Assembly: GCF_032854445.1 (NCBI RefSeq)
Contig: NC_088296.1
Coordinates: forward strand, 15,365,485-15,429,484
DNA length: 64,000 nt
Direction of reading: 5' to 3'
DNA from: Liolophura sinensis
Lineage: Eukaryota > Mollusca > Polyplacophora > Chitonida > Chitonidae
Of the stretch, positions 14,394-62,200 are shown one piece after another; the stretch's first letter is position 1, and every line of letters starts with the position of its first letter. A model generated the notes under the pieces. It saw only the letters and a list, made by a program, of their open reading frames with translations, was not told the origin of the DNA and made no database searches. The position numbers and the translations under genes are program-made.

Positions 14394-14454
<61 letters not shown>

Positions 14455-26400: not shown

Positions 26401-29163
26401 CACACACCAGCGCCACACACAAGTGCGCCTCACACCAGAGCCACACACCGGCGCCTCACACAACAGTGCTCCACACCAGCGCCACACACCAGCGCCACAC
26501 ACCAGCGCCACACACCAGGGTCTCACACAATGCTGTAATGATCTGAAAACTCCCATTTTTTGTCGTAGTTAGTTAATAACTATTTTTTAATAAACCCGAG
26601 TGTTCTCAACACTGTAACATTTGTTCGTACCTCAGTATCTAGATAACTCAGTCTTTCATCGGGCAACCAGATGACTCACTTTATTTTATTTATTTCGAGA
26701 TCTAATCTGAACAGCTAGCAATCAGAAATTTCCAAATTTTTAAAAGAGCTTAATCTTTGTGAGAAACACCATATCTGAATATGTGAATTTTTGAAGAAGT
26801 GATGCCTTAAGAATTTAGGTGTACAATTTACAGTTATCCATGACTGCTTTGGTGGTCAGAGCATCCATGTCAAATTCGACCCAGAATCAAACACGGGTCA
26901 GATCATACCAAAAATTTGAAAACTGGTACTTGTTGCTGCCTCACTTGATGCTCAGCGCTGAGAGGTTAAGGCAAGGAAACAGGACTGGTTGGTCTGGTGT
27001 CAGTATAATGCGACTGGGTGGGGTGTCATGTCTGGTGTCTTTGGTGTGATACTTCAGTGGTGGCAACACTTAAGTGGCATGGACTCACCCTGCTACAAAT
27101 AGACGCAATATATATACTCACAGCTAATGACTCCTTGCCATATGACTGAAAATTAGTAAGTACGACGTTAAACCCCAAGCATACAGACAGACATATCATG
27201 CGTGACAGCATCATCTTGCTTGGAAACTATGTGTTTATATTTATTGTTTTTGTTAACTTGTAGGAAAATTTAGAAGGCCAGAAACATGAAGAGTTATCAC
27301 GACAGACTACTAAACTAGCTGAAGAAGCACAGGTTAAACTGGCTGCCCAGGCTGAGGAAAGGGCCCAGAATATCACACCAGCTGATCAGACACCTGGTGG
27401 GAGAACATCAACAGCCAAGGGAGATAATGCTGACACAACACTAGAAGTGACAGCTCATCCTGAAGTCATGGAAACTAAAAGTCCGTCCAGAGGCAGTGAT
27501 AGGAAGGGTGAGCAGTCAGACGGGGAGACCGTTGACCCTGGGGATAATGCAGAACGACCCATGAGCATGTCAAAGGAAGGAGAGCCAGAACTCACCAAAC
27601 TTCTTCAGCAAACTGACGATGCTAAGGTACTAGTTCAAGGTCAAATGGGGCAAAAAGTTAGGTCTGTATTTGACCTTTTATGGAAAATCAGCTTTGGGGG
27701 GGGGGGGGGGAGAATAAAGGGTACAAACTATTACTTTAGTGCTAAAACTTGTATGTCTCCAGAAGGATATCCCCCTATAAACTTCAAAACACCTTTTTTA
27801 ATATTAATGGATCGACTCAGGAAAAGTTGTAACCTTTATAGTGATGTGTTTAATTTTACGTTAAACATAATGTTTGGAATTTTTGGAATTTACTCGAGAG
27901 GTTTCCACGTAACACCTTGACACGATAGAAAAATGGAAACATGAATAAAAAATGTATGTTTGTATAGAATGTTTTCATGGTTGAAAATCATGGACTCCAC
28001 AAGTACATGTCGAGGCCATACTCAGTTATTTGAGTTCTTCGCTGTCGGCGTTCATGGGGCCTTATTGATAATACACAATAGATGACGCCCGTGTGGCTGT
28101 TTAGGCAGTTGAGCTTTCATGATTGGCATATCTGCAAATTTATTAATTATTTGCCAAAAGGCAGTGGTTTACCAGGCTATGAAATTTGGACGGTCAGAGT
28201 GGAAGGCTAGGAACTGCATTTAGAGCATAATGGCATTGAGTTCAAGTTCAGTGAAACACTTTGCAGCATCATGGCACCAAATGACAGCTTTTGTTCACAG
28301 TCATGTTAGCGCTTGTTTTTTGCCAACGGACAAGTATTAAAACAACCTGGGAAGAGGTAGCTCTAACAACTGACACAACTTCTGTTTTGTGTGAGCTTTC
28401 GTGATATCATACCGTGAGGGTAGCTGGCACCCTTGTGTGGGTAACTCTAATATAGGCCTACCAGTTGAGCGCTACGTAGTTCAAGGGCTGCATTTGTGGG
28501 AACGTTCCAGGGAACAGATCAGCGTAACTGATTTATCATTCAGCAAAGTTACACTCCATGCGAACGAAACCAGATTTCGTGGCCAGGTTTTCCCGAACAC
28601 ACTCTGATTCTCCTCACAGATAAAACTAACACCCATGGTATATGAGAAAAATTCCTGTGTATGGTAACAACAATCAGTCACATCAAATGTCTCAGGCTGT
28701 TTACAAGTGTTGTCTTTATCTCTCAGGTACAGGAGTTGAAGCGGTCATCCACCACCTTATCTGCGGCACCCACCCTAGAGACCCCTGTAAAGGACACTGG
28801 TCCGAGATCACAGTCTGCTCAGGTAATCTGGAGAGAGAGGAACTGCTCTTGTGCAGAAACTTTTAAGGCAAGAGTTATGTCCCATGCCAGTGGAGTGTTA
28901 TCTTGTGATATGGTAGGGAAGCTGCGTACATGTAGTTTGATATAAAGTGGGGCCATGCAGCTCACAAAATGAATTGGATTTTAGATCAGTAATAAGTTCA
29001 TCAAATTTCTTGAGTCCCATTTTGTTTTAGTTTTCTTGGTTAGCATTGAGCATTGCATATGCAGAACACTTGCATAAATGAACAAACTTAAAAAATTTTT
29101 GAGAACAGGCCCTGGTATACACAAAACGGTTATCATAATCTGTATATATAAGCTACATATGTA

Positions 29164-29209
<46 letters not shown>

Positions 29210-32200
29210 CAATACAGACACCTGTGATGCAAAATGCAGGTGTAAGGAAAAACATGAGGTATTAAAGCAATGTTAAAAAGTGAGATTTACACGTAACTTA
29301 TCTTCACAGAGTATATTTGCTTAAGGGGGAGACTTTGTTGTCACAACATGGCAGCATTTTGTCTAGTTCATATAATACATATATTGGACATATAGTGGCC
29401 TCCATGGTCTGTTGGTCTGGTGGTTTGCACGCTAGTGCAGCTAGCACAGTGACCTACTAGTAGGGGCCTCTCTCCAATGTGGTCTCTGCGAGTTCAAGCA
29501 ACCTGCAGATGTTCATGGGTTTTCCTTGGGTTCTGCACGGTTTCCTTCCACCATCGTATGAGTGAAATATTTTTGAGTACAATGTAAAACATCAATCAAA
29601 TAAATATACACAAGGACATAGTCAAACTGATTTCATGAGAAATGGTTTCGAGCTAGCTTGACAGTTGCAGGTTAATGTTGCCAAGTTATGTTGCCATGTT
29701 GGTTTATAAGTGTTAAAACATCTGATAGTGTGAACGGATCAAGAGTGAAAATATTGGGTAATGAACGGTATTAAAATGTCATTGAAATTAATTTGTGGGA
29801 ATGGTATTGTCATGTCACTCTTAAAATCAATTAATGGAAGGGGGGATAACTCCCATGTGCAGGCGGCACCACTGACAGCGCTGGAGACAATAGTTCAAAA
29901 CCTAGAGAAGATGATGACCAGTGAATCAAGCCTTGAACCTCAACAAACTAAAGCTCTCACGGCTGTACGGAAGGCTGTAAAACTGTCAGCCAATGGAAGC
30001 AGCCTGTCAGCGGTTCAGGCGGCGCAAACACTGGCAATAGTCTCCCTGGCTGCCCAGCTCGCAGAGGAGTCCTTGAAACTCGGCATTAAACCTAGCTGCT
30101 TTTTCGACCTCTTCGGAAAATTAAATATGGCCGCCTTGGAGGCCAACAAACTCGCCGAAGGTGTTTCTGACATTGAAGAACAAGTTGAAGGGAATAGTAT
30201 TGATGCCGCAGACATTGTCTTGTCTGTTCCATCAGACTTTCAGCAGCCACCTACTGTTCTGGAAGACCTCCTTCAGTCTGATGAAAAGCATCAGGCTTTG
30301 GCAGAGACATTGCCGACTGTGCTCTTGTCGCGGCCATGCACTGCCCCTAAGGTTTGTGCCAGTTTTTGTGTGTGTGTTGTATCCCATGTTGTGGCACACA
30401 CTGTTACAACTCTCTCCTTTGTCACTTAAACGTCAACATTGTTTTGGTTTCTCAGAAATTCCTGCACTTAATACTAAATAGTGTTATTTTGTTACTTATA
30501 CAATGTACCTGGATGGAGCATGTATTGAATTTATATTGATTCTCTTTCTTGATTTACTATGCAAAATTTTCACACCTTTTTTGTCTTCTACACTATGCAC
30601 ATCTCTCTGTCTGTTATGACTGGAGCAATTTTTACACATGTGCCGTTCATGTTTTATGTGTGTCCATCTAAAGGACATTTGACCATTGTGTCCATTATCC
30701 CTACCCCTGTGGCATAAAGCCAAAATCATCCTTTCCTATGAGGAGACCTCCGTGGCTCAGTTGGTTAGCGCATTAGTCCAGTGTAATGACCCAGGAGCCT
30801 CTCATCAGTGCAGTCACTGTGAGTTCAAGTCCAGCTCATGCTGGCTTCCTCTCTGGCCGCAAGTGAAAAGGTCTGCCAGCAACCTGGTCGTGGGTTTCCC
30901 CTGGGTTCTGCCTGGTTTCCTCCCACCATAATGCTGGCCGCCATTGTATAAGTGAAATATTCTTGAGTACGGCGTAAAACACCAATCAAATAAATAAACT
31001 CAATAAATCCATTCATATGGAGACCAATGGATACGAGAGCTACAGCCATCACTGAGAGTCGCACTGCCTCAAGAGCATAACTGTATTTTTCTCATCATAA
31101 TTTCCAGTTCTTATGAAAATTGTTTCACAGGATAATTAGTGTAGTAAATAACAATTATAGGCCAGCAAACTTTGCGGGGCCACCGTGGCTCAGTTGGTTA
31201 GCGCACTAGCGCAGCGTAATGACCCAGGAGTCTCTCACCAATGCGGTCACTGTGAGTTCAAGTCCAGCTTATGCTGGCTTCTTCTCCGGCTGTAAAATGG
31301 GAAGGTCGTGGGTTTCCCCCGGGCTGAGCCCAATTTCCACCCATCATAATTCTGGCCGCCATCGTGTAAGTGAAATATTCTTGAGTACGGTGTAAAACAA
31401 CAATCAGATAAATAAATTGTTGGTTGTAACCATGGTTACAGCATCAGCATGTAGATATGTGAGTGTCTTCCATTAGCAAGGATCAGTATTTCTGATCATT
31501 ATCAGTATGTATGTATGGGTGTAATTTGTGATAGATGTGGATTATTCATGCTGTAGTCTATAAACTGATTATCATCCAAGTATATCCAGGTACATATTTC
31601 ATTCTTAACAAATGCAAACTCTTCCCAGAATTTGAACTATACTTTTTTAACCAGCAACCTGCGGATGGTCGTAGGTTTCCCCCGGGCGTTTCCACCCACC
31701 ATAATGCTGGCCGCCATCGTATCAGTGAAATATTCTTGAGTACGGTGTAAAACACCAATGAAATTAATAAATAAATAAACCTTAACCGATGCTTAAATTG
31801 GCACCTTCAGACCCAGACCTCCCATACGACTACCCAGTTAGGAACTTTACCCCATGTTGATGCACCCGGGGCAGACGTCATGTCTCACAAATCTTCCCAA
31901 AATGTCGCCTTTTCTGACAGCCCTGGGTATAAGGAGACGGTTGATGTATTCACCCAGTGGAATGAGCGCGATGCTCTGGGTGGCATCTCACCAGAAAGCT
32001 TGGAGGTACATCTGGACTTGTGTCTGGGTTTGGATTTATATTTGTGTGCGGGTGTATTGGCCCGTTAGCCTGCATACAGTGCAGTGAAATAAATAACATT
32101 TTCTAACCGTGTGGTCTTAGGTAATAATATCCTGTGTTGGTTATTTAATTCTCACAATAACTTTATTGTGTCACAGTATGATTCCACCTCCATTATGTCA

Positions 32201-35200
32201 CAGTTAATGACTCCAGCTTCATTTTGTCACAGTTAATGACTCCATCCTCATTTTGTCACAGTTCATGACTCCAGCTTGATTTTGTCACAGTTCATGACTC
32301 CAGCTTCATTTTGTCACAGTTCATGACTCCAGCTTCATTTTGTCACAGTTGATGACTTCAGCTTCGTCATGTCACAGTTCATGACTCCAGCTTCATTTTG
32401 TCACAGTTCATGACTCCAGCTTCATTTTGTCACAGTTCATGACTCCAGCTTCATTTTGTCACAGTTCATGACTCCAGCTTCATCATGTCACAGTTAATGA
32501 CTCCAGCTTCATCATGTCACAGTATGACTCCAGCTTCATCATGTCACAGTTCATGACTCCACCTTCATTTTGTCACAGTTCATGACTCCAGCTTCATCAT
32601 GTCACAGTTCATGACTCCAGCTTCATTTTGTCACAGTTCATGACTTCAGCTTCATCATGTCACAGTTCATGACTCCAGCTTCATTTTGTCACAGTTCATG
32701 ACTCCAGCTTCATTTTGTCACAGTTCATGACTCCAGCTTCATTTTGTCACAGTTCATGACTCCAGCTTCATTTTGTCACAGTTCATGACTCCAGCTTCAT
32801 CATGTCACAGTTAATGACTCCAGCTTCACTTTGTCACAGTTCATGACTCCAGCTTCATTTTGTCACAGTTCATTACTCCAGCTTCATCATGTCACACTTA
32901 ATGACTCCAGCTTCATTTTGTCACAGTTCATTACTCCAGCTTCATTTTGTCACAGTTCATTACTCCAGCTTCATTTTGTCACAGTTCATGACTCTAGCTT
33001 CATTTTGTCACAGTTCATTACTCCAGCTTCATTTTGTCACAGTTCATTACTTCAGCTTCATCATGTCACAGTTAATGACTCCACCTTCATTTTGTCACAG
33101 TTAATGACTCCAGCTTCATTTTGTAACAGTTCATTACTCCAGCTTCATTTTGTCACAGTTCATGGCTCCAGCTTCATTTTGTCACAGTTAATGACTTCAG
33201 CTTCATCATGTCATAGTTAATGACTCCAGCTTCACTTTGTCACAGTTCATGACTCCAGCTTCATTTTGTCACAGTTAATGACTTCAGCTTCATCATGTCA
33301 CACTTAATGACTCCAGCTTCATTTTGTCACAGTTAATGACTCCAGCTTCATCATGTCACAGTATGACTCCAGCTTCATTTTGTCACAGTCACTGCCACTT
33401 CTTTATGCCACATTCACTTCAACTTCATTATTGCAGTAGGACTCTTGCTTCATTATGTCACAGTATTACTCTCATTTCATTATGTGCCAATATGACCCCA
33501 GCTTCACAGCATGACTCTTATTCCAGTATGTCACAATATGACTTCCCACCTCATTTGTCTACAATTACACGGCTGTTGCATTATGGCTGAAATGATAGCT
33601 CAGGTTGAAGCAGAATTGACCACCGTTATCTTTCAGCCTGTATTAAGTAATATGTTATTGCCATTTGTGAAATCAGGAATCAGTGATAAACTACACAGAT
33701 TTCGTGGACTAAATTACCTCGAGTGTCGTGGGGTTTACCATCATGTGCCTATAAGGAATGGATCGGAATTTATGTGGCCTGTTTAAGGTTTATAATTCAT
33801 GTTGAGGTTAATGATTTGAATGAACAGATAACATGTTTGTACTGCATAAAATCTAATTAAAAAACTGAATTTTAACTTATGTAGTAATACCGGTATTATA
33901 GTACCATAGTACTTGTGTGTTGGTTGTTGTACAGTTACATGTAGTTGTTTGAATGGTATAAAAATTTGGATGAATATGTTCATAGATACTTTATATTACT
34001 GTAATTTTTTCAACTTTTTCACATGTTTGCAAGCTGTTTATTCAAGCATCTTCTGAAGGCATTCTTCTGTGTTAACTGATAAAATTATACTTTTTGCGAA
34101 GAGGGGAAATGGGTCAATCTATCCAATGTAAGTTAGTCTGAAAAATCAAATTAAAAATGTGCATAAATTGCATTGAAAGTTGCTCTTTCATGTGTGAAAA
34201 GGTTGAGGATTTAGAGGACTCACTGTGGTAGGTTTTTAGTTTGCAGTTAATTTATGTAACTGTCTATTATGACAACAGACTAATAGTTAACAAAATGTTT
34301 TCACAACTGAAAGCTGTTTGTTGTGTGGTAAACATGGTAACGGTGTGAATTTTGTATATCAACTGGGATTGAGCTGTGAATTGAAAATCTGTATGTGACT
34401 TACAACTGACATGAATTTACCAATGTGTAAGCCTGTTTTTAGCATATTTTTAATATTCAAGGAAATTGAAGGAAATTGAATTAAATACATGTGGGCATTT
34501 ACTTTCCAAAAAGCTATGATGACTCATTTTCTCAAGTTCAAATACAGGAGGGAGCTTCCTTGGCTCAGTTGGTTAGCGCGCTAGCAACGTAATGACCCAG
34601 GAGCCTCTCACCAATGTGGTGGCTGTGAGTTCAAGTCCAGCTCATGCTCCATAAGTGGGAAGGTCTGTCAGCAACCTGCGGATGGCCAAGGGTTTCCCCG
34701 GGCTCTACTCAGTTTCCTCCCACCATAATGCTGGCTACCGTTAAGTGAAATATTCATCAGTACAGGATAAATCACCAATAAATTGATTTATTTAATTGTA
34801 ATAAATAAATAAATAAATAAATCAAATACAGGAACTTCTTTCACTTTATGTTGTATATTATATGGAAGTGATACATTTGTTGTTCTTGCCTTTGAAAATT
34901 TTGACCTTGAAATCTTGAATTGAACATGTCGAAGGTCCCATTCCAGACCACACAGGGCTTTATTGAGAACATGACTGTACCAGCTGTAGCCCTCAAGTTA
35001 AATGTTTGAAATATATTTCTTGTGTTCACATGAGATATTAGATTTATAGATCGTCTTATTTTATATTTACTTAACAATACATTCTCTGTAATACAGTGTC
35101 AGAACTTTGATTAAAATTAAAACATTTTAAACAGACATTTTTGTCCAATGGCTGCATTACGACTGCATTGGCGTGAAGCCATGATCATTCATTCATTTCT

Positions 35201-38200: not shown

Positions 38201-41200
38201 TTCATGCCTTTCGTTTGACTTTGACCTAAATCAGCTCTTCTGTGACTCGTGCAGTGAAGTAGCTCCAAGCACTGCAATGTGGTCAACAGCTATGCATGAC
38301 AATTCTGACAGTTACATAACTGTATGATACAGTCAGTGAACATTAATATCTTTAGAAATTAACATTGATGAGAGCCTTCCTTCAGTATCAGAAGGCTCTG
38401 AATTCATTTACACAAACACACTGTAAAGATTTAAAGATTTTATTCCTGAGTACGCAGGATACATAAACGGAGACAATTCTGGAGGCAGGTGGCCTCCAAT
38501 TTTGCTCAGTGTTACATCTCAGAAATGCTCTTTATGGTGATGAGTTTGTTTACTGGCGACCTCCTGGGGGTATGTTGGTTTACAGTTGCCTGAGGTTGAT
38601 AATATTAAAATATAAAATCTACCTGTATACCCCTGGAAGGTCACAGTAAAACTGATATGGGCACCTCCATGGCAGAGGTGGCTAGTGTGCCGGCAGGTCA
38701 CGATGAACTGAGAGTCTCTCACCAATGCAGTCACTGTGAGTTCAAGCTTATCTCATGCTGGCTTCCACTCCGGCAGTACATGGAATGATTTGGCAGGAAC
38801 CTGCAGATGGTCGTGGCTTTTCCCAAGGCTCTATGGTTTCTCCTCGGTTTTTCGGGTATGGCACAGAAGTAACTAAATATAACTAATGGATGTATTGTGT
38901 GTAGGTATATAAACCCACCCTAAAGTCAGCCTTGTCTCTCTGAATGTTCGTTTCAGGAAGCCCTCAGTGGAGAAGGACGTTAACCCCATCGTGCAGGAAT
39001 ACCTGGAGAGCTACGGCGGAGTGGTCAGTTTTAAGGAGGACCTCAGCAAGCTGCTGATGGACAAAGGTATCAACACATTTATGAGAATTATACCGTATCC
39101 TTGATATCAAAATGGGGCCGCTTTGGTGGCATAATGGTATAGAGTGTCTGCCTCAAGTCAGGACCCATGTCAGGTCAGACCAGGATGGCACTACCATGCT
39201 GGGCACTAAACACTGACAGGATAGAGTAAGGAAATAGGACAGTGTAATATTGTGACTCAGTGGGGTGTCATGCCTGATGTCTTCAGCATGATACTTTAGT
39301 GTGACGGCACTTTAACGATATGGACTCGGCATTGTGTCACACGTAGTGACTCCTCGTTGTCATGGACTCAACATTGTGCCACACGTAGTGACTCCTCGTT
39401 GTCATGGACTCAACATTGTGCCACACCTAGTGACTCCTCATTGTCATGGACTCAACATTGTGCCACACCTAGTGACTCCTCGTTGTCATGGACTCAACAT
39501 TGTGCCACACCTAGTGACTCCTCGTTGTCATGGACTCAACATTGTGTCACACCTAGTGACTCCTCCTCGTCATACGATGGAAAAATGCGTTACTTCGTCA
39601 GAACGATCCAGAAACTGAACAGTACATTATAATGACCACACATTATGGTACAGCAAAACCGTGATGATACAGCATGGTACACTACTGAACAGTTCAAGCT
39701 AGACCATGCGGTACTGCTCAAAAAAGTCCAAAAACTGAATAGGACAGTACTGCCTTGTCAGAGATCATATGCTACAGCACAGCATAACCATGACTGTACA
39801 GTACACTACTGAACAGTTCAAGCTAGACCATGCAGTACTGCTCACAAAACGCTCACATACGCTACAGCACAGCATAACCATGACTGTACAGTACACAACT
39901 GAACAGTTCATGCTAGACTATGCGGTACTGCTCACAAAAGTCCAAAAACTGAACAGGACGGTGCTGCCTAGTCAGTGACCATACGCTACAGCACAACATA
40001 ACCATGACTGTACGGTACACAACTTAACAGTTCAAACTAGACCATGCAGTACTGCTCACAAAAGTCCAAAAACTGAATAGGACAGTGCTGCATAGTCAGT
40101 GATCATACGCTACAGCACAACATAACCATGACTGTACGGTACACAACTGAACAGTTCAAACTAGACCATGCAGTACTGCTCACAAAAGTCCAAAAACTGA
40201 ATAGGACAGTGCTGCAAAGTCAGTGATCATACGCTACAGCACAGCATAACCATGATTGTACGGTACACAACTGAACAGTTCAAACTAGACCATGCAGTAC
40301 TGCTCACAAAAGTCCAAAAACTGAACAGGACAGTGCTGCCTAGTCAGTGATCATATGCTACAGCACAGCATAACCATGACTGTACGGTACACAACTGAAC
40401 AGTTCAAACTAGACCATGCAGTACTGCTCACAAAAGTCCAAAAACTGAACAGGACAGTGCTGCCTAGTCAGTGATCATACGCTACAGCACAGCATAACCA
40501 TGACTGTACGGTACACAACTGAACAGTTCAAACTAGACCATGCAGTACTGCTCACAAAAGTCCAAAAACTGAATAGGACAGTGCTGCCTAGTCAGTGATC
40601 ATACGCTACAGCACAACATAACCATGACTGTACGGTACACTACTGAACAGTTCAAGCTAGACTATGCAGTACTGCTCACAAAAGTCCAAAAACTGAATAG
40701 GACGGTGCTGCCTAGTCAGTGATCATACGCTACAGCACAGCATAACCATGACTGTACAGTACACAACTGAACAGTTCAAGCTAGACCATGCAGTACTGCT
40801 CACAAAAGTCCATAGACTGAATAGTAATACAGCAGCTGAGCAGTCAGTATTGTGCTGGTCTGAGCAAAACAGCCCAATAGTGCAGCACTCACATATAAAG
40901 GCAGCCATTTTACCTTTTTCTGCTTTTTTTCTCTACTATATTGATTATTTTTGACAAAAATTATTTCCTTAAAATTTGTTAGTTTTTCCAGAAAATATAA
41001 GGAAAAAGGAAATAGTCTTTTTGAGACTCCCATTATAAGGAAGTTCTTTTTCTGTCTCATCTCTCAAAATTTATTTATTTATTTTTTTATTTAAAAGATT
41101 TATCAGTGTTGTGTCTGATACAGGCAAAGCAGCTAAATGTTAGAGTTATGATTATCACAAAATGTGGTTGTACCTTGTAGACATGATGACAACCAGCCAG

Positions 41201-44200
41201 ATGCTGACAGAGTTAGGGAGTGTTATGTCTGATAGAGACAAAGTGGCTAAATGCTAGAGTTATGATTATCACAAAATGTGGTTGTACACTGTAGACATGA
41301 TGACAGGCAGCCACATGCTGACAGAGCTTGAGAGTAGTGTTTCTGATACAGGCAAAGTGGTTAAATGTTAAGAGTTATGATTATCACAAAATGTGGTTGT
41401 ACCTTGTAGACATGATGACAGCCAGCCAGATGCTGACAGAGCTAGAGAGTGTGGCTTTCCAGCCAGAAGAAGAGGTAGAACCTCAGCTGAGGAAGATGAC
41501 CAAAAACCTTCATTACAGTATGTCACTGATTGGTTGTGGTTGTTGTGGTTGGATTGGTGTTGGTAGACTGTGCTGAAGAATAAATATTTTCACCTGATTG
41601 TGACACCTTAGCAAGATTTATGAATGTAGGAAGAAATACAATTTACTTGAAAAATACAAGGCATGAATCCTTGGCCAGTCTAATACTTTATTCATTTATT
41701 TATTTATTTTAAGTTGTACTGAAGGCCATACTCAAGAATTTTTCACTCATGCATTGGTGGTAAGTTTTTTTGGTGGAGAGAAAAGAGAGTGTCCAGAATA
41801 ATCCACTGACCTTTGGACAATTGTTGATGAACTTTCTCACGTCTGATGTACTACCATGTACACCATACTAGTGGAAGACTAATGCTGTTCTACAAAGATT
41901 AGACTGTAGAATCAGTCATATGAGTGTTGATTGTCCACCGCTTATTTAGCTGTGTAGGAAAGGCTCATGACCTGTAGCAGATATATAGTGTTTGTCTTTC
42001 AATGGCTGGGGCACACAAGGTACGGGTTCAAACCCAGGCCTGAACAAGAAATTTGTACATTCCCCTGACTCCCAGTGTCCTTGGTGTCTTGGTGACATTC
42101 GTTGAAGAACTGACATGACATGCAGGGAGGTTAATCTGATGATCCAGTTGCCAAAGTTTGGTGATAATTACCCCAGGCCCAGACACTTCATTGTGTCAAT
42201 TTCCTCCACCCATAAAATGGATCGCTGTTACATGAGTGAAAATCTCTTGAGTATGGCCACAAACAGCTATCTAATAAATAATATAGTTTTCTATTGAAAT
42301 TTTTACTATATAGTTCTATTTTTCACCAGGAGGAAAGATTGAAGGTGTCGTCTTTGTTGTTAGTCACACAAAAGATTTTAGTTTAGATCTTTAAAATCAT
42401 TTTAAATTACTTTCTATGGAAAGACAGAAACAGTGTTAATAATTTTATCCTGCAGTTTTATTTGAGATAATAGGATTAATGATGATGATGATTCATAATT
42501 AATAATAATAATTAATTAATAATATACACATGGAGAAATCATATTTTGTGGCTCTTTTTTTGGACACTTTGGGGCCTCCGTGGCCAAGGGGGGTTAGCAA
42601 GCCACCGGGGCGCAATGTCCCAGGAGCCTCTCACCAATGCAATCACTGTCAGCCCAAGTCCAGTTCTTGCTGGCTTTCTCCTTGGTGGTACGTGGGAATG
42701 CCTGTCAGTAACCTGCCAATAGTCACCGGTTTCCCCCAGGCTGTGCATAGTTTCCACCCACCCTAACACTGGCCGCTGTTGTATAAGTGAAATATTTTTG
42801 ATTATAGCATAAAACACCCATCAGATAAATAAAATGGTCACTTTTGAGGATTTAATTAGGCACTTTTGAAAAATGAGTCGTGCGAAAATATGCATGTAAT
42901 TTCATTTGGCATGCTGCTTAACACGGTGACAAATTGCTTTTACACATGTAGTTACACCTCATTTCAATTAAGGTGAAAGAAAACCCTAAAGAATACAACA
43001 GGCTATCAGCATTACCAGCGTAATGTTTGTCATCATATACATATTTGCAGTGAAAAAAAAAATAGATCAGCATGTAGTTCCCCATGGTCTTTCCAAGAAA
43101 GAGCAGAGCCAGTTGGTGTTCTGTTTCTAAATTTGCTTTCTTGGATATTTTGGTTATAATATAATTTGTTTCTCTGCAGTTCTGGATGAATTGATGACAC
43201 TATTTGGCACGATACTTGTTAGTGACAGGGTAAGTTGAGGTTAATGATGTCTTCAGTATGGAAATACAGGTACCTGAGCCCCTCGTGTGGGAAGGTCTGT
43301 CAGCAACCTGCAGATGGTTGTGAGTTTCCCGCGGCCTGTGTCCAGTTTCCTTCCCCCATAATGCTGGTTGCCTTCAGATAAGTGAACCATTGTTGTGTAA
43401 GGGGTAAAACATATCAACCAAATAAATAAATCCAGTACCTTCCAAAGCAAGCCTCCTTATCTTGTTACAGATGCTCTTGATCTTGAACTGATCCTCATTG
43501 AAGTCTGTAGTAGTGAACTGTTAGTGATGTTCGGTATGAATATGTAAATTTCTCTTCAAAAGAAAAAGGGGGCCTCCGTGGCTCATTCGGTTAGCGCGCT
43601 AGTGCAGCGTAATGACCCAGAAGCCTCTCACCAATGCGGTCACTGTGAGTTCAAGTCCAGCTCATGTTGGCTTCCTCTCCGGCCGTAAGTGGGAAGGTCT
43701 GCCAGCAACCTACGGATGGTCGTGGGTTTCCCCTGGCTCTGCCCGGTTTCCTACCACCATAATGCTGGCCGCCATCGTATAAGTGAAATATTCTTAAGTA
43801 CAGGGTAAAACACCAATCAAACAAACAAACAAATAAAAGAAAAGGTGACATAATATAAGTGTAGTTATTTCTGAAGAATGATGAGGAATGAATAAAAGAC
43901 ATGGATGATTTTTGGGGTTTTTTCTGACATGCTTGGTAACTTTAAATAATATCTTATCAATCAGTTTTAATATGCAATTCATATGGCCATGGTCGTACGT
44001 GGGAAGGTCTGCCAGAAACCTGCGGATGGTCGTGGGTTTCCGGTTTCCTCCCATCGTAATGTGGCTGCGGTCGTAAAAGTGAAATATTCTTCAGTACGAT
44101 GTAAAACACCAATCAAATAAATAAATAAGTAAATATGGCCATGGTGATAAATAAATAAATAAATCAATGAATAAAACAAACTTTCTTTGCTGTTTGCTTC

Positions 44201-50200: not shown

Positions 50201-53200
50201 CAGCAGAGGAATGTGCACAGCATACGCAAATTATGAGCTTCAAGAAGACGTATTTTTGGACTACTGTGATTCTTTAACATTTTTGCATGTTTGCTAAGGT
50301 GTTAATTCAAGCATATTCTGAAGGCATTATTCTCTGTAGACAAATAAAATTTTACTTTTTTGTAAAGCCCTGAAACTGGCCAATTCAGGAAATTTTCTTT
50401 TGTCTCTAAAATAATATTAAAGATGTGCATAAATCCCACTGAAAGTTGCTCTTTCATATGCGAAAGGTTGAGGGTAACTTCCATGTTATTTTAATATAGA
50501 CAGTATTTTACAGTGCAAGTCAAGCATGTAGGTACGAATAAAGTGGCCAATGACTGCCTATGGTTAGCAATGGTTTCTCAGTACGGTAAAGCCTAGGTGA
50601 ACTTTAGGGTATATACTGCATATCAGCTGCACGGTACTTGAGCAGGCGTGCGGTAATACATTATTTGCTGCATACCTGCAGCCACACAGGGCATGTACAT
50701 TTATTAGAATGCCCTGCAGTAATGTATAGAGTAGTGAAGAGTGGGAAATGACACAAGGAAATACAAGACCCATTATTTTGGGGTTTGTTTAAGAATTTTC
50801 CTGTACATTTGCTGTGAAGTGCCACAGTGCTCTATATATATTTGTAATTCTTCTTGTATCAGGTGTAATTCCAGGCAGTATAGTGAATGGAACAGCCAAG
50901 GTGTATATATATACATGTATGTAGTGTTAGACCCTAATCAGGCTTACACAAAACCAATACCGACATCATTAGCAACGGTAATCCAGGGGAGATAATCAGC
51001 TTTCCTGACTGACCCTTTTGTATTTGTCTCAACCTGTCTGCATTGTGTTTGTGTTTTGCTTGTGTGTGACAAGTTTCCAAGTTGGTCATTCACTGTGATG
51101 TAAGTCAGAGAGTTAACACCACAGTGTTCAGATATACCCAACATTACACAGACTGTCGCTGCTCGGCTTATGATCTGCATGTTTTGTACAGTGTGCAACA
51201 AGGCATGGACATTCTCTCAATGATGTAAGTCGGACAGTTTAATACTGCAGAGGTTTATAGGTATACCAAACTTCACACAGACCTCCAGCTTAGCTTGTGA
51301 GCTGCCATTGTTGTTATGTAGAACACTAGGAATTGGTCGACATGTATATGATGTAAGTTTGGACTTTAATTTGCCGGTACTGTGGAGAGGTATAACCAAA
51401 CGTAATATATAACTGTGTATGAGTGGCCATGTTAGGCTCAGTTGTCTGCCCCGTAGTAGAAATTGTGCAGTGTTATTCAGTGTTAGTTTTCTGTACTTGC
51501 TCCTAAAACAAACTGGATGTTGCCTGCATATACCGAATTTGTATCTGAGGTTTGACTTCATGAAAATCACAAGTTTCTTCCTGAGGTAAGCCAAATTTAG
51601 TTACAAATGGCAAATATTATAAAAATCAGGTGTGAAAGATTGTTGTTTTTTTTTTATAATGGTACATTTTATCCTTCATATGGCATGCACTCAGTGTGGG
51701 TTCACAAAGCTTATGACTCTTACACACTCATAATTCACTGACACCCTGAATATATCTGTTGCAACCATATATACACACATGTACATGTCATATGGCATGC
51801 ACTCAGTGTGGGTTCACAAAGCTTATGACTCTTACACACTCATAATTCACTGACACCCTGAATATATCTGTTGCAACCATATATACACACATGTACATGT
51901 CATATGGCATGCACTCAGTGTGGGTTCACAATGCTTATGACTCTTACACACTCATAATTCACTGACACCCTGAATATATCTGTTGCAACCATATATACAC
52001 ACATGTACATGTCATATGGCATGCACTCAGTGTGGGTTCACAATGCTTATGACTCTTACACACTCATAATTCACTGACACCCTGAATATATCTGTTGCAA
52101 CCATATATACACACATGTACATGTCATATGGCATGCACTCAGTGTGGGTTCACAATGCTTATGACTCTTACACACTCATAATTCACTGACACCCTGAATA
52201 TATCTGTTGCAACCATATATACACACATGTACATGTCATATGGCATGCACTCAGTGTGGGTTCACAATGCTTATGACTCTTACACACTCATAATTCACTG
52301 ACACCCTGAATATATCTGTTGCAACCATATATACACACATGTACATGTCATATGGCATGCACTCAGTGTGGGTTCACAATGCTTATGACTCTTACACATT
52401 CATAATTCACTGACACCCTGAATATATCTGTTGCAACCATATATACACACATGTACATGTCATATGGCATGCACTCAGTGTGGGTTCACAATGCTTATGA
52501 CTCTTACACACTCATAATTCACTGACACCCTGAATATATCTGTTGCAACCATATATACACACATGTACATGTCATATGGCATGCACTCAGTGTGGGTTCA
52601 CAATGCTTATGACTCTTACACACTCATAATTCACTGACACCCTGAATATATCTGTTGCAACCATATATACACACATGTACATGTCATATGGCATGCACTC
52701 AGTGTGGGTTCACAATGCTTATGACTCTTACACACTCATAATTCACTGACACCCTGAATATATCTGTTGCAACCATATATACACACATGTACATGTCATA
52801 TGGCATGCACTCAGTGTGGGTTCACAATGCTTATGACTCTTACACACTCATAATTCACTGACACCCTGAATATATCTGTTGCAACCATATATACACACAT
52901 GTACATGTCATATGGCATGCACTCAGTGTGGGTTCACAATGCTTATGACTCTTACACACTCATAATTCACTGACACCCTGAATATATCTGTTGCAACCAT
53001 ATATACACACATGTACATGTCATATGGCATGCACTCAGTGTGGGTTCACAAAGCTTATGACTCTTACACACTCATAATTCACTGACACCCTGAATATATC
53101 TGTTGCAACCATATATACACACATGTGCATGTTAGTCTTCAATCATTTCTCATGTTTACAAAGTCTTTAAGTATATTCTGAAGACATTTTTCTGTGTTGA

Positions 53201-56200
53201 CTGATAAAATTATACTTTTTCTGCATACATGAAATTGGCCATTCCAACCACTGTAATTTTGTTCATTTTTGGTCAAAATGGCACTGAAAGTTGCTCTTTC
53301 ATTTGCGAAAAGGTTGAGGAATTAGGGTATATTTAAAAGTTTCAACCCATCTACATTGTTACATGTAATGAGGCCATATGTTTAGGAGGCTTTTGAGAGC
53401 AGTTTAAAGTGCACATTGTAGTGAAACAACAGACGAATCAAACTATTTTAAAATTTATTCACATATATCCAAATTTTATCTGAATTGCACTTGAGTGATT
53501 TGTGTGAAGAGATTGATCATCTTTGGCCACAATGTCCAGAAGTAATCGATGTACTACGGGGTGGTGTGGAGCTCAACTAGTAGAAGAAATTTCTGCTGAT
53601 TTTGACGGGAAAGATCCTCTTCCCTATAGAATATGAATGACGTAGAATGTAATAATTCAATATACAGTGGCTGTTAATATTATGTGCAAGTAATATGCAT
53701 GGTTCGAAACCCATTCCGTCGAATTGTCTACACTAAGAGTGTAGTATCACAAAATATGAATTGTGACATGACGATGCTGACATCATGATATTGACCGTGT
53801 CTTGTTCATGGTGTTTCAGTTAGGCAGCACCATGAGTACAGAGCTTATGAATAGGTCACTGTGAATGGTCACAGGGACCATTTTGCTATTAGCTCAGAAG
53901 TTGACCATGTCCATGGATCTAATAAAAATCACTGTTCCTATCTGATCAGGAATTCATTGAAAGGTGTTTTTGTTTTTCCTAGGAGGCTGTCCGTCAGATG
54001 GACCAGTATGTGAGTCTGCCTGCTCAGAGATTGGCTCAGCTGGTGCGCAAGTATGTCCACCACAGATGCATGAAGAAGATTGAAGGTAAGATTAAAGGAC
54101 CGATCTGGCAGAACGTGCAACCTAATCATGGGTGAAATTTACCCCTAATTCTTCTATTTTTTTAGGACTGATACTAGTATTGCTGTAAGCAAAGAATTAC
54201 ATTTCTCTCACAGTTTTTTTGGAAAAGTAAAGAATTGATATGAATATGTTGTTCAGTAGATGAACTAACCATGTGAAAAAAAAATTAACATACTATTCCT
54301 ACCACAGTTACATGTATATTGGTGAAAAAGAGTAGAGCCGGTATCCCGAAAATTAGAACAATTAGGGTATGTCTAGCGTCACTGTCATCATTCATGATCA
54401 TAATGTAATATCCTGTACATGACACACCTGTCTAAACTTGATTAAAAATAAAAACGTGTATAACAGAAATTTTGCATAATTCGTAGTGCATGACTGTTAA
54501 ACCAGCATGTTTGAGGAATGTGATAACTATTTATGTATTTATTTATTTATTTACATGTATTTATTTTTGATGCTGTATATACATAGCACAGAGTTTTATA
54601 GTGCTGAGACCAGTTTGGGTCTCAACCATCATCAAAACTTCGTTACCATTACGTACATGTATAGGGCCTACTCAGAAATAACAGAAGGACTAACCGTGTA
54701 CTGACTAAGACGTATGCTATTTGGTGTCAGTGAGCAAATGTCTGTGGGTAACCTCTTCTTAATCTTAGAATTTACATATTTATTTAATTTCAAGGGAACC
54801 TATCATCTGACAGTGGTAATTCAAAACATTTTAACACTGTGCATTCACATGTTTGTTATACCAAGACTAAGTGATGCGTTGGTGTTGTCGCTGTTTGAAA
54901 ATACTCACCTTTCAATGAAATCTTTCTTCTGTGCTGCAACCTTAAGTGTCTTTGACCTTTCAACTTAAGTTTCTGTGACCTTTCAACTGTAAGTGTCTAT
55001 GACCTTTCAACTTAAGTTTCTGTGACTTTTCAACTTAAGTTTATTTGACCTTTCAACTCGTGAAGGGTCTTTTCTACGTACCTATTGTCACTCACATCCA
55101 TGTAAATAAATAAAGTGGCATTTGACAATAACAACCTGGATAGCCTGGGTAGAAAATGCCACAAGTACCGTAAATTACCTCCTTGAGTCTGATGTTACTA
55201 CTAGCAGCATTAAGCGGCTGACAGGAATGCCAATGAAGTGATTTTATTGCTGAAAAGGACCACTCACAATTTTGAACCTACAATATTCTTTTTAAATCTG
55301 CAAGTCAAGACACTACATGTAGCTACCAAATTTTCTGGATAGAACACTGACTCTGTCATTACAAGGGTTTTTGTGATCTGTTCGTAGATAATGCCCATCA
55401 TTACAAGGGTTTTTGTGATCTATTTGTAGATAATGTCCGTCATTACAAGGGTTTTTGTGATCTGTTTGTAAATAATGTCCGTCATTACAAGGGTTTTTGT
55501 GAACTATTTGTAGATAATGTCCGTTATTACTAGGGTTTTTGTGATCTATTTGTAGATAATGTCCGTCATTACAAGGGTTTTTGTGATCTATTTGTAGATA
55601 ATGTCCGTCATTACAAGGGTTTTTGTGATCTATTTGTAGATAATGTCCGTCATTACAAGGGTTTTGTGATCTATTTGTAGATAATGTCCGTCATTACAAG
55701 GGTTTTTGTGAACTATTTGTAGATAATGTCCGTCATTACAAGGGTTTTTGTGATCTATTTGTAGATAATGTCCGTCATTACAAGGGTTTTTGTGATCTAT
55801 TTGTAGATAATGTCCGTCATTACAAGGGTTTTTGTGATCTATTTGTAGATAATGTCCGTCATTACAAGGGTTTTTGTGATCTATTTGTAGATAATGTCCG
55901 TCACAGTAAAAACCTCAATGAAAATGTGTTCGAAATCCTGGACAAAATGGAGGATCTGCAGAACAAGGTGAGAATCCAGCTGAAATCAGAGGTTAAAGGT
56001 AAACTACAAAGACTTTTACGCAAAATTTACGATGTAGATAACATAAGAAATTATTACTAATATATTTTTACTGATGTCTTACATAAGGTACATGTATAAA
56101 CAATTCATGAATCTAACAACAACCTAAAAGCAATTTGCTGAATTTTTGCATCGAGTTTTGGCGGGGAGTATTTCATTCCATTTTGGTTGTAACTTTGATA

Positions 56201-59200
56201 CTTATATTTCAAAAACTACAGATTTAAATATTCTATGTGCTTCAGAGAGCTAAAGAATGGACTGACAACATGGATGCTCTGGGTGTAGAGAGATGCCGTC
56301 TGGCCAGTCTGCTCATGGAGACGCTTGATAATATAGAACAAGAGTCAGGAATTTTCCTGATAAAACCCATCTACTCCTTGAAAGGGAGGTAAGTCTGTCA
56401 CTGCCACAGTGTTGATTTTGAAAGACGTCGTCTGGCCAGTCATGGAGACGCTTGATAATATAGAACAAGAGTCAGGAATTTTCCTGATAAAACCCATCTA
56501 CTCCTTGAAACAGAGGTAAGTCAGTCACTGCCACAGTGTTGATTTTGAAAGACACCGTCTGGCCAGTCTGCTCATGGAGACGCTTGATAATATAGAACAA
56601 GAGTCAGGAATTTTCCTGATAAAACCCATCTACTCCTTGAAAGGGAGGTAAGTCAGTCACTGCCACAGTGTTGATTTTGAAAGACGCCGTCTGGCCAGTC
56701 ATGGAGACGCTTGATAATATAGAACAAGAGTCAGGAATTTTCCTGATAAAACCCATCTACTCCTTGAAACAGAGGTAAGTCTGTCACTGCCACAGTGTTG
56801 ATTTTGAAAGACGCCGTCTGGCCAGTCATGGAGACGCTTGATAATATAGAACAAGAGTCAGGAATTTTCCTGATAAAACCCATCTACTCCTTGAAAGGGA
56901 GGTAAGTCAGTCACTGCCACAGTGTTGATTTTGAAAGACACCGTCTGGCCAGTCATGGAGACGCTTGATAATATAGAACAAGAGTCAGGAATTTTCCTGA
57001 TAAAACCCATCTACTCCTTGAAAGGGAGGTAAGTCAGTCACTGCCACAGTGTTGATTTTGAAAGACGCTGTCTGGCCAGTCATGGAGACGCTTGATAATA
57101 TAGAACAGGAGTCAGGAATTTTCCTGATAAAACCCATCTACTCCTTGAAAGGGAGGTAAGTCAGTCACTGCCACAGTGTTGATTTTGAAAGACACCGTCT
57201 GGCCAGTCATGGAGACGCTTGATAATATAGAACAAGAGTCAGGAATTTTCCTGATAAAACCCATCTACTCCTTGAAAGGGAGGTAAGTCAGTCACTGCCA
57301 CCGTGTTGATTTTTGAAAGACGCCATCTGGCCAGTCTGCGCATGGAGACGCTTGATAATATAGAACAAGAGTCAGGAATTTTCCTGATAAAACCCATCTA
57401 CTCCTTGAAAGGGAGGTAAGTCAGTCACTGCCACCGTGTTGATTTTGAAAGACGCTGTCTGGCCAGTCTGCTCTTGGAGACACTTGATAATATAGAACAG
57501 GAGTCAGGAATTTTCCTGATAAAGCCCATCTACTCCTTGAAACAGAGGTAAGTCAGTCACTGCCGCAGTGTTGATTTTGAAAGACGCTGTCTGGCCAGTC
57601 TGCTCTTGGACACGCTTGATAATATAGAACAGGAGTCAGGAATTTTCCTGATAAAACCCATCTACTCCTTGAAAGGGAGGTAAGTCTGTCACTGCCACAG
57701 TGTTGATTTTGAAAGACGCCGTCTGGCCAGTCTGCTCATGGAGACGCTTGATAATATAGAACAGGAGTCAGGAATTTTCCTGATAAAACCCATCTACTCC
57801 TTGAAAGGGAGGTAAGTCTGTCACTGCCACAGTGTTGATTTTGAAAGACGCTGTCTGGCCAGTCTGCTCTTGGAGACGCTTGATAATATAGAACAGGAGT
57901 CTATACACAGTCGCTGACACAGCCTTGGATAAAAAGAGAGAAACCGTGTAGTTATTTTTCTCAAGGAGACATCTGATAGTGTTGGACATATGACAAGTTG
58001 TTGGCCTTTGAAAATATGATTAACTCCAATTGTAGTCTGCTTATAAGTGCTTGGAAGTATGTTTGTTTGCTTGAAAATCTATTTTTAGAAATATATAATA
58101 TGCCCCACAGTGTACCTTTACCCGGGCCCCAATGTCTTTTTTTACATTTTACATTTTTTTTCCTCCAGAGATTTCAAAGAGAGGTTTGGGGGTAAACTGA
58201 GCCGTTTGAACAGACCTAACCATGAACCCTCCCCAACACGGAACGGATGCCGTAGTGCCATGACTCCTGCACCCACCCCTGTCAGCAACACCCGGCCTGG
58301 GACACGTGCCTCTGATGGTGGAAGATTAGGTCATGTAAGTGACACGGCCAGAACTACCCAGTGTTTAACCCTGGTTTTTAGCAGGGTTTGAAGGACACAT
58401 GACATGCTCATAATGCTTACTTCTATTGTATATAATGTGGCATAACATACAGGTATAAAACTACAAAAAAATAGATCAGCTGTTTTCTGGGAGACTAAAA
58501 TGACTTTAATCTACAGCTTTCATAACCCAGCAGACAAAGTTATTTTATTTTTTCCCTGTCTGCCCCATGTTAAATTAATAATCCCTGCTATAGGAGAGTC
58601 TGAGACTGGTGGAACTGTCTACCTTAAGTGTACATTTAAGACTGTTCCCTGTCAGACAGCGTTTAAAGTATGGTACATGTAAAGAATGGAGAAATACACC
58701 GCATGCAGCAGCATAAAAATATATATAGCCTACTGGGATGACAAATTATTTTTTTTTAACTGCTTCAGCTACTGTATATAGGGCTTAGGTGTACAGGTAG
58801 ATAATGGGGTGGTTGATTATTTGCCCAGATAGATGACAGATATATGCAATGTATATATAGGCCTGTACACTACATGCAGTCTTAGGCTGTGCCTATTATC
58901 ATATTAGGCGGCCACCGTGACTCAGTTAGTTAGCGCACTGCGCAGCGTAATGACCCAGGAGAATCTCAACAATGCAGTCGCTGTGAGTTCAAGTCCAGCT
59001 CATGCTGGCTTCCTCTCTGGAAAGGTCTGCCAGCAATCTGCAGATGGCCGTGGGTTCTCCCAGGGCATTGCTCGGTTTTCTCCCACCAAAATACTGGCCA
59101 CCGTCGTATAAGTGAGATATTCTTGAGTAAGGCATATAAAAGTAATCAAATAAATAAACAAAGAAATGAGTGTATTGACTCTTTTTATAATTGTGTAACT

Positions 59201-62200
59201 TTTGGTTAAATTGTGCATGACTTGAGCATGTACATAGATTCAATACACTATATTTCAACTAAAGTTTGTTATGTAAGAATGAATTTTCAGAAACACACAG
59301 ACTTTAAAGTGATACTTTTGATGCCAACACTTCTGCAAGAAGTTAATTAAACTTCAAAACAAACTCAATAAGTCAGTCAGAATCAAGCAAAATGTGTTGA
59401 AATACCATATGTTCTTTGTGTTAGGAGACATGAAATGATCTATCCATACCCAGGCACAGAGCAGTGACTACTGAGATGTGCCATGGGGAACCAAGATGCC
59501 CTGTACAGATGTGTTAGATCTGGGTTTTCAGTTTTAAAAATAAACTTTTAAATTATTAAATACATGTGATATTTAAAGCTGTACTACTGTCCCAATCCCT
59601 CGGCTGATGGCCATTCTGTCTGTAACTCATTTTCAACTTTTGATTCTCATCTTTTTGGTCAGACGCAATCGGAGACAGCTCTGTTTGCCCGCCATGCTCT
59701 GTTTGAGCCAAACACAGGGGTGTCTGGGTTAGGCATGGTGTGGAGAGGAGGCCAGCCCAGACCAGTATGGAATGTAAGATATGAGACAGTGTTTTAATGA
59801 GAAACTTCTGGAAAGGATATCAAATCTCAGACGTGCTTTTCATAAATAAGTTATAAAGGTGTACAAGAATTTGTGACATCACTTCTGAAAACTTTGTTGT
59901 TTCTGATCAGAAGTATTGTATAAAAAACTATTAATTAATTCTTAATTATTATTTCAGGATTTGTGTGTAATGAAGACAACACTGTAATGGTGCTCTGATC
60001 ACTGCAAGCTTTCTACCTAACGCAGATTAGTGAATTAAATTCACCGATGGGCTTTCCATATCAATATGTTTTTCCACAGCTTGGTTCCGATTTGAGTTTT
60101 TGTGACAGAACAAGGATCAATAATGAGTTAAACACAAAAAATGGTCCCCATCAGATGTCTCTCCTTATAAATATTAGGCAGGAGATTTTTCAATTTTTAG
60201 AATTCTTTCTTTTTTCTTTTGTCTTTTGTAAAGTGCTCTGGATTTCGGTTAAAAGTGCTAAAAATATAAAAATTACGAGTTGATGTACCTCGCTGTTTTA
60301 CAACCCAATATTTGAATACTTACTAATGTGCTTCTTGTAGCTGACAGATTCTCAAGCTAAGGAGCTGTCCAATGAGAATCTCACTAGCTATGCCAACCAG
60401 AACTACAACACACCTCGCATCCTTGAGCTGGATGTAAACAGAATGCTGATTGGTCAAAACAATGTCAGGTAGGTGTCAAAGACAGTTTTAATGTGGGTAG
60501 TTGAATTATGGTTGTTTCAGGCACATACCTTTTTAAATTTAGTTTAGTTTTCATTTTCTGTTTGTAGATTTGCAGTAATACAATTTTCTCATATCATTTA
60601 TGTCCAGTTCAATAATATTTTCTTATCGTATGTTTTGGGTTTGATAATTAATTTTGTCAGTCCAGATTTCTGTAGGATTGCAGTCTTCTGTGGTGTGTCA
60701 GGGGCTGACAACTGTGTCAGCAATTTCATGTGCCTGAAGGGGAGATAATTATTACTTATTAGTATTGGGCACACTAAAGGGAAACAACTCATGTGTGCAG
60801 CCGCCTTTGTTATGTCCTCATGGTTGTAGATGTTCGTGTACAAATGATAATGCTTGGTACTGAGTAAAAAGCCAAAGTGGGCAAAGAACAGAGAAGTTTC
60901 TTTGCTTCCTTAATATAATTAGACACACAAATTTTCATCATATATCAGTCTGGAAAATTATCTGTTTGTAAAATTACTGATTCTTGTAAAAATCTTAACT
61001 TCTGGGTATTTCAAAAGTCATATATTTACAAGATGTTTACAGCTGTACATGTAGTTCACTGTAATAAGCATGTTGGCTTGTGATCTGTTTTAGAGTTTAG
61101 TTTAATGCCTCTTTTTTCTCATAAGTAAAGGATAACTTTTGACTACCCTGTTTTGCAGTACTCGTGTCAGAGCTGGCCTGACAGATGACAGATTGGTCAA
61201 TGCAGTGAAGAACTCAGTGAGGTCATATGTCACAGTGAACAGGCCTACTGTGGCTCCCGGACAAAGCAGGTTCAGTGCAGGTAAGGCTATGACAGGCTGT
61301 ATTTGTCAAATACCTGTCACAAATATTCTCTTTGCTGATGGACAAACCAGGTTTAATACAGGTAAGGCTTTGACAGGTGATATTTGTCAGTTACCTGTCA
61401 GAAATGTTCTTTTTTGCTGATGGACAAGCTAGGTTTAATTCAGGTAAGGTTTTGACAGGCAGTATTTGTCTCATACCTGTCAGAAATTTTTTTTTTTACT
61501 CATGGACAATGCAAAATTGGTGCCAGGAGGAAGCTACCAACTTTTACCTGACAAATCTCCAGACTTAATTCTTTGTCCAATACTGCCAGTGCTGGATTTG
61601 AACATCCGACCTCATTGTTCATAGGCCTGATCATTGCACTGAGCCAGCTCTTAACCATCTGATCCAGAGATCCAATTAAATAGATTTAAGGAAATTAGGA
61701 ATAAGAACTTGTAGCTGGGTTCTTGCCAATGCTTACGGAAACTTGAGGGGCGTAGAGTGTATGATACCCAGTCGTTCTGCAGTCAAATTGTTTAAGCCTG
61801 TTTAAAATGCTATCTGGTCATACTGGCTTCTAGTAATAAAGTTAAATGCAAATAGCAAGTCATTGAATTTCAATGAAAATTGTAAACATTTCCGTACTTT
61901 GAATATAAAAGTTTGAGTATGGCTTGAAATATGTGGTGAAGCAATTTTAAGTTATGCCTAGGGGGCCTCCATGGCTAAGAGGGTTAGCACGCCAGCACGG
62001 CGCAACGACCCAGGAACCTTTTGCCAATGCAGTCGCTGTGAGTTTAAGTCCAGCTCATGCTGACTTCCTCTTCGGTCGTACCTGGGCAGGTCTGCCAGCA
62101 ACCGGTGGATGGTCGGGGGTTTCCTAGGGCTCTGCCTGGTTGCCTCCCACCAAAATGCTGGCTGCTGTTGTATAAGTGAAATATTCTTGAGTATGACGTA

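Follow-up and report, generated by a model that had tools for sequence, protein, structure and literature searches.

A minisatellite over an intron/exon boundary of a chiton gene repeats an acceptor splice site partly in the frame of the exon

Introduction

Minisatellites lying over splice sites go by the name of mirages, and Canestro 2002 is reportedly the first paper on them. Excerpts of PMC3087553 describe them in amphioxus, in the globin genes BflGb6 and BflGb9 and in Adh3, as minisatellites covering intron/exon boundaries on the 5′ and the 3′ side. According to the same excerpts, many of the units, though not all, carry AG/GT signals, and the arrays are unstable in length. They reportedly leave regular splicing intact, although the additional signals might serve as cryptic splice sites (PMC3087553). 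In lancelet PGBD5, likewise, imperfect 60- and 108-bp repeats lie over 5′ and 3′ splice sites and are thought to be harmless to mRNA splicing, as stated in part of PMC3902484. Potato RdRp offers a further likeness, described in the abstract of PMC4974935: a duplicate crossing the boundary carries the branch site, the polypyrimidine tract and the 3′ splice site, and this one duplication led to a new intron.

Here we describe a 42-bp minisatellite of the chiton Liolophura sinensis, together with its reading frame, its gene, the conserved join that it overlies and the other splice-site arrays in that gene. Coordinates refer to the window, that is, the whole stretch of 64,000 nucleotides analysed (GCF_032854445.1, contig NC_088296.1, positions 15,365,485 to 15,429,484). 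The array has the structure of a mirage: units of intron plus exon sequence lie over a splice site, and the signal recurs in many of them (TAG in 12 of 13). As in BflGb6, the unit takes in the 3′ end of an intron and the 5′ part of an exon; the units of BflGb9 cover the 3′ boundary of an exon (excerpts of PMC3087553). Amphioxus units measure 10–72 bp in Adh3 and 150–160 bp in the globins, against 42 bp here; the amphioxus work also covered mRNA and variation in length (PMC3087553, in part), while the chiton array is described here from its genomic sequence. It differs from the PGBD5 repeats in gene, phylum and periods. Unlike the single duplication of potato, it has 13 copies and gives no sign of a new intron, since the GT sites at the start of the exon (55896, 55900 and 55906) score 1.5 or less.

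We found no chiton minisatellites at splice sites in the open-licence literature, where the matches to chiton minisatellites all concern Theileria parva by title; for minisatellites at mollusc splice sites the matches were the PGBD5 paper and one on introns of Conus genes. Two elements are new and set this locus apart from the amphioxus mirages: it belongs to a mollusc, and four or five boundary arrays are clustered in one gene. In addition, one of these arrays, that of 42 bp, is open in the frame of the exon.

Results

The gene and its exons

Exon positions come from a home-made gene finder and from tblastn with six proteins, and some ends are approximate; splice sites were scored with a simple matrix of our own. 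The exons around the array are the following.

53983..54085, + strand: preceding exon, ending in ...CMKKIE plus one base, with the donor GAAG/gtaaga scoring 10.2 (tblastn and homolog alignment).
55891..55967, + strand: exon numbered 26 in the first-pass annotation, 77 bp, entered in phase 1 and left in phase 0, with a conserved join at 55891 and a donor scoring 10.7 (homolog alignment and tblastn).
56246..56388, + strand: following exon, RAKEWTDNM...IYSLKG, whose own donor is repeated (gene finder and tblastn).

A first protein search gave at least 66 homologs among the best 7997 word-sharing candidates scored; from their species names we take them to be from molluscs, annelids, nemerteans, echinoderms and lancelets. 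PF20865, the FAM186A/B C-terminal domain, is borne by 28 of the 66. On the exon-joined piece it reaches an E-value of 3.5e-6 and 27.5 bits, below the curated cut-off of 37. Given the domain in those homologs, we treat the gene as a FAM186A/B-like relative coding for a coiled-coil protein; because of the shortfall we do not file it as a member of PF20865.

By tblastn, the Liolophura sinensis protein P0066 matches exons of the window from 8561 to 24997 at 94–100% identity, with one match at 79% that includes flanking sequence; its last matching exon is the start of a longer match running into repeats. Residues 1–357 have no tblastn match in the window among the matches listed, so the gene begins upstream of it and the exon number 26 is provisional. 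At the other end (24878–25770), P0066 runs beyond the donor of exon 24878–24997 and ends in an intronic 13-bp minisatellite (25344–26518); the deposited model is probably cut off there, past that exon. In protein searches, each over a limited length range, we found no Liolophura protein that covers the gene's downstream half or the junction at 55891. One of these searches, aimed at the junction, gave 7 matches, none of them Liolophura by name and two without an organism in the name.

A row of acceptors in the frame of the exon

The array and its two notable stretches are as follows.

55355..55903, + strand: acceptor-side mirage minisatellite, 42 bp × 13, covering the intron's 3′ end together with 13 nt at the start of the exon (TRF and unit tables).
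55681..55890, + strand: the five units nearest the exon, which run into its frame without a stop, DNVRHYKGFCDLFV × 5 with one residue different in the first copy (translation).
55640..55680, + strand: 41-bp unit with one T fewer, which throws the acceptor at its own start and those further upstream out of frame (unit table).

TRF assigns it a period of 42, 13.1 copies, 96% matches, 0% indels and a score of 1021. The first-pass annotation had reported thirteen exon-like starts spaced by 42 bp with one step of 41, and the tables bear this out: the starts lie at 55388, 55430, 55472, 55514, 55556, 55598, 55640, 55681, 55723, 55765, 55807, 55849 and 55891, with 11 of the 12 steps measuring 42 bp and that from 55640 to 55681 measuring 41 bp. 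It had also counted a TAG in front of twelve starts, correctly; the exception is 55472, preceded by TAA. The unit indeed joins an intron end to an exon start, with 29 intronic and 13 exonic nt (ATAATGTCCGTCA). This exonic 13-mer is altered at 2 of the 13 starts.

Translation agrees with the proposal that the five units before 55891 are open, in phase and 14 codons long, each giving DNVRHYKGFCDLFV or a one-residue variant; the copy starting at 55681 reads ...CELFV. The claim that another choice of acceptor would lengthen the protein by whole copies holds arithmetically: joining at 55681, 55723, 55765, 55807 or 55849 would add 5, 4, 3, 2 or 1 copies of the 14 residues in frame. As was also said, the 41-bp unit at 55640 bounds this run; all seven starts upstream of 55681 are frameshifted and meet stops.

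The frame-breaking changes (the TAA, an internal TAG and the 41-bp unit) all fall in distal units, and there is one change in the five proximal units together. This pattern is what selection for an open run would produce; recent expansion explains it equally well. Two units five places apart, 55472–55513 and 55681–55722, have a T-to-A change in common (GAACTATT), which hints at the duplication of a multi-unit block.

The 549-bp array is probably assembled correctly, since the L. sinensis assembly was made from longer HiFi reads, of 8,347 bp on average (PMC11068029, in part). Among the best candidates scored, its flanking sequence has a single full-length match in the assembly, which is the window itself; a further 12 matches are partial and all fall in the donor-side array nearby.

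The join at 55891 is the conserved one

We joined exons 53983–54085, 55891–55967 and 56246–56388 and aligned the product with 88 related proteins. The junction is spanned by 80 of them, compared as proteins and including many isoforms or close species that are not independent: 78 are gapless nearby, P0074 has a one-residue gap and P0061 a deletion. None of the 80 has a 14-residue insert at the junction. The remaining 8, including P0066, which has no match there, do not span it. A junction alignment on 82 proteins agrees, with 77 spanning, 75 gapless and no inserts. Judged from these alignments, the zero-copy join at 55891 is the conserved one, because 78 of the 80 spanning proteins are gapless and none holds the insert.

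The same comparison bears on another reading of the open frame, namely that the repeats are ordinary coding sequence, the true exon starting further upstream and taking in part of the array. The 210 bp open upstream of 55891 would fit, but the 41-bp unit closes the frame, the homologs cross the join without extra residues, and four words of the repeat peptide that we tried occur in none of the 88 related proteins. Only the faintest chance is left to this reading.

Near-equal acceptors

The acceptors from 55681 to 55891 score 5.4, with 3.9 at 55723. Among the other acceptors of the gene, 18 of 24 score higher, over a range of 3.8–11.8 with two sites left out. Over 29 nt of intron side, 55681 differs from 55891 by one T fewer and 55723 by one T-to-A change; the other three are identical to it. 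Branch-point-like UNA cores, scored for 55849 and 55891, stand 27 and 30 nt upstream, and another lies at 12 nt.

Thus no intron-side feature favours 55891 among the six in-frame acceptors, so position and exonic sequence would have to decide between them. Because the six share near-identical intron-side sequence, some use of the neighbouring in-frame acceptors is plausible.

Exon length separates the in-frame choices, which would give exons of 77–287 nt, an ordinary size, from the others, which would give 328–580 nt, long for exon definition. This length stands against the idea that the array is chiefly a splicing hazard, in which copies upstream of 55681 are often chosen and yield frameshifted mRNA and lower expression, with no diversification. 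Such copies do look usable, as 6 of the 7 have a TAG and score 3.9–5.5, and reading on from them meets stops; even so, we give a hazard of this kind a very small chance.

The place of a possible insert was located on the Tegillarca homolog P0050, whose AlphaFold2 model is modest (mean pLDDT 54.8), with the block 381–390 at 83. By residue count the junction falls after E383, five residues before the end of helix H345–388 and adjoining a loop. Since it would sit near the end of this predicted helix, an insert there is not obviously impossible.

Other arrays at splice sites of the gene

Four further arrays lie at splice sites of the same gene.

41105..41452, + strand: acceptor-side mirage, 114/115 bp × 3, spanning the acceptor of exon 41410–41517, with three acceptor copies, out of frame.
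56291..57901, + strand: donor-side mirage, 127–133 bp × 12.4, spanning the donor of exon 56246–56388 (TRF).
61259..61509, + strand: donor array, 81/82 bp × 3.1, spanning the donor of exon 61159–61280, with three donor copies.
63495..63584, + strand: edge case, 35 bp × 2.6, with three copies of the acceptor CCACCCACAG, the array ending at the acceptor before 63585, an exon of less certain placement (TRF).

The array at 56291–57901 holds 12 G/GTAAGT sites 127–133 bp apart, and reading beyond the first donor of exon 56246–56388 meets an immediate TAA. Of its 11 extra copies, 6 are missing 5 bp of exonic sequence, and because of this loss they are not kept as coding sequence. The neighbouring exons 55891–55967 and 56246–56388 therefore mirror each other, the first with a row of acceptors and the second with a row of donors. 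At 61281–61361, use of the next donor copy (61361) would add 27 open in-frame codons (81 bp); reading onward to the second meets stops. None of the three other splice-site arrays tested (41105, 56291 and 61259) is in frame throughout.

Placement and frame are consistent with chance

The 42-bp array is not itself a chance match, but arrays with periods of at least 10 make up 17.5% of the window, against 7.8% of 200 kb sampled across ten contigs of this genome, a sample in which the cover varies from 0 to 52% per 10 kb. Of 53 splice sites mapped in the gene, 4 lie strictly inside arrays, or 5 if the edge case is counted. When the arrays were moved through every circular shift, the mean was 9.3 sites (sd 3.0), with 98% of shifts yielding 4 or more and 6% yielding 4 or fewer; at the sampled genome density, 4.1 overlaps would be expected. 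Arrays thus overlap splice sites no more than chance, and perhaps less, as expected if exons resist them. We considered a special targeting of splice sites by arrays and rejected it: since the 4–5 overlaps among 53 sites do not exceed the 9.3 of random placement, no targeting mechanism is needed. An ab initio scan for boundary arrays over 20 × 10 kb and the window, in which 12 and 9 exons were called, returned none and missed the known arrays.

As a baseline for the frame we took 103 arrays from the 200-kb sample and the window, 32 of which have a period divisible by three. Read on both strands and in all frames, they give 618 readings, of which 95 (15%) combine an open frame with such a period. 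With five splice-site arrays in the gene and this baseline of about 15%, one fully in-frame case is unsurprising, and the in-frame property of the 42-bp array is most likely due to chance.

The central proposal of the first-pass annotation was a sliding acceptor that would add 0–5 copies of the 14-residue peptide. In a functional version, the in-frame acceptors would be used often enough to make a ladder of such isoforms, kept by selection. Its arithmetic and the near-equal sequence and score of the acceptors stand; its function is weakened by the homologs, which have the zero-copy form, and by a frame expected at about 15% by chance. The five open, in-phase units with frame-breaking changes confined to distal ones argue for it, as do the pyrimidine tract and TAG common to the copies, the branch-point-like cores 27 and 30 nt upstream of 55849 and 55891, the ordinary size of the resulting exons and a junction near the helix end and loop of the P0050 model, where an insert might be tolerated. 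However, no homolog has the insert, the other tested arrays of the gene are not in frame throughout, and the repeat peptide (GFC, LFV) is, judged by eye, unlike a coiled coil. We regard the selected ladder as unlikely.

Discussion

Altogether, we think it probable that the array is an acceptor-side mirage whose frame arose by chance, with splicing mainly at 55891 and minor use of upstream copies. In this repeat-rich genome it most likely came about by accident, and lancelets have already provided examples of the kind. A 42-bp piece straddling the intron/exon boundary would have been duplicated in tandem, and the array would then have grown through slippage or unequal exchange. Splicing would take place mainly at the conserved acceptor 55891, so that the main product would be the zero-copy protein. 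A minor share of transcripts probably joins an upstream copy, since the 3′ splice site is nearly complete in every unit. With one to five extra copies the protein would still be readable; acceptors upstream of 55681 would lead to a frameshift.

The same components could also work as a variable dial of protein length: unequal exchange would alter the number of in-frame acceptors, and splicing noise or regulation would turn it into isoform steps of 14 residues, or two heptads. Were this true, individuals, and perhaps cells, would differ in the isoforms that they make, the difference lying near the helix end of a coiled-coil protein. We find such a dial quite improbable.

Under the preferred reading, that of a mirage in frame by chance, boundary minisatellites, described in lancelets in excerpts of PMC3087553 and PMC3902484, occur here in a mollusc, and their number in this gene fits the general density of minisatellites. 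The row of near-identical acceptors also offers a natural experiment on the weight of position, exon length and exonic sequence in the choice of an acceptor, and the adjoining donor-side array offers the same for donors.

Large intronic minisatellites are present in the window as well, at 32161–33389 (29 bp × 42.6, 90% match) and 51676–53132 (112 bp × 13, 99%); the latter looks like a recent expansion.
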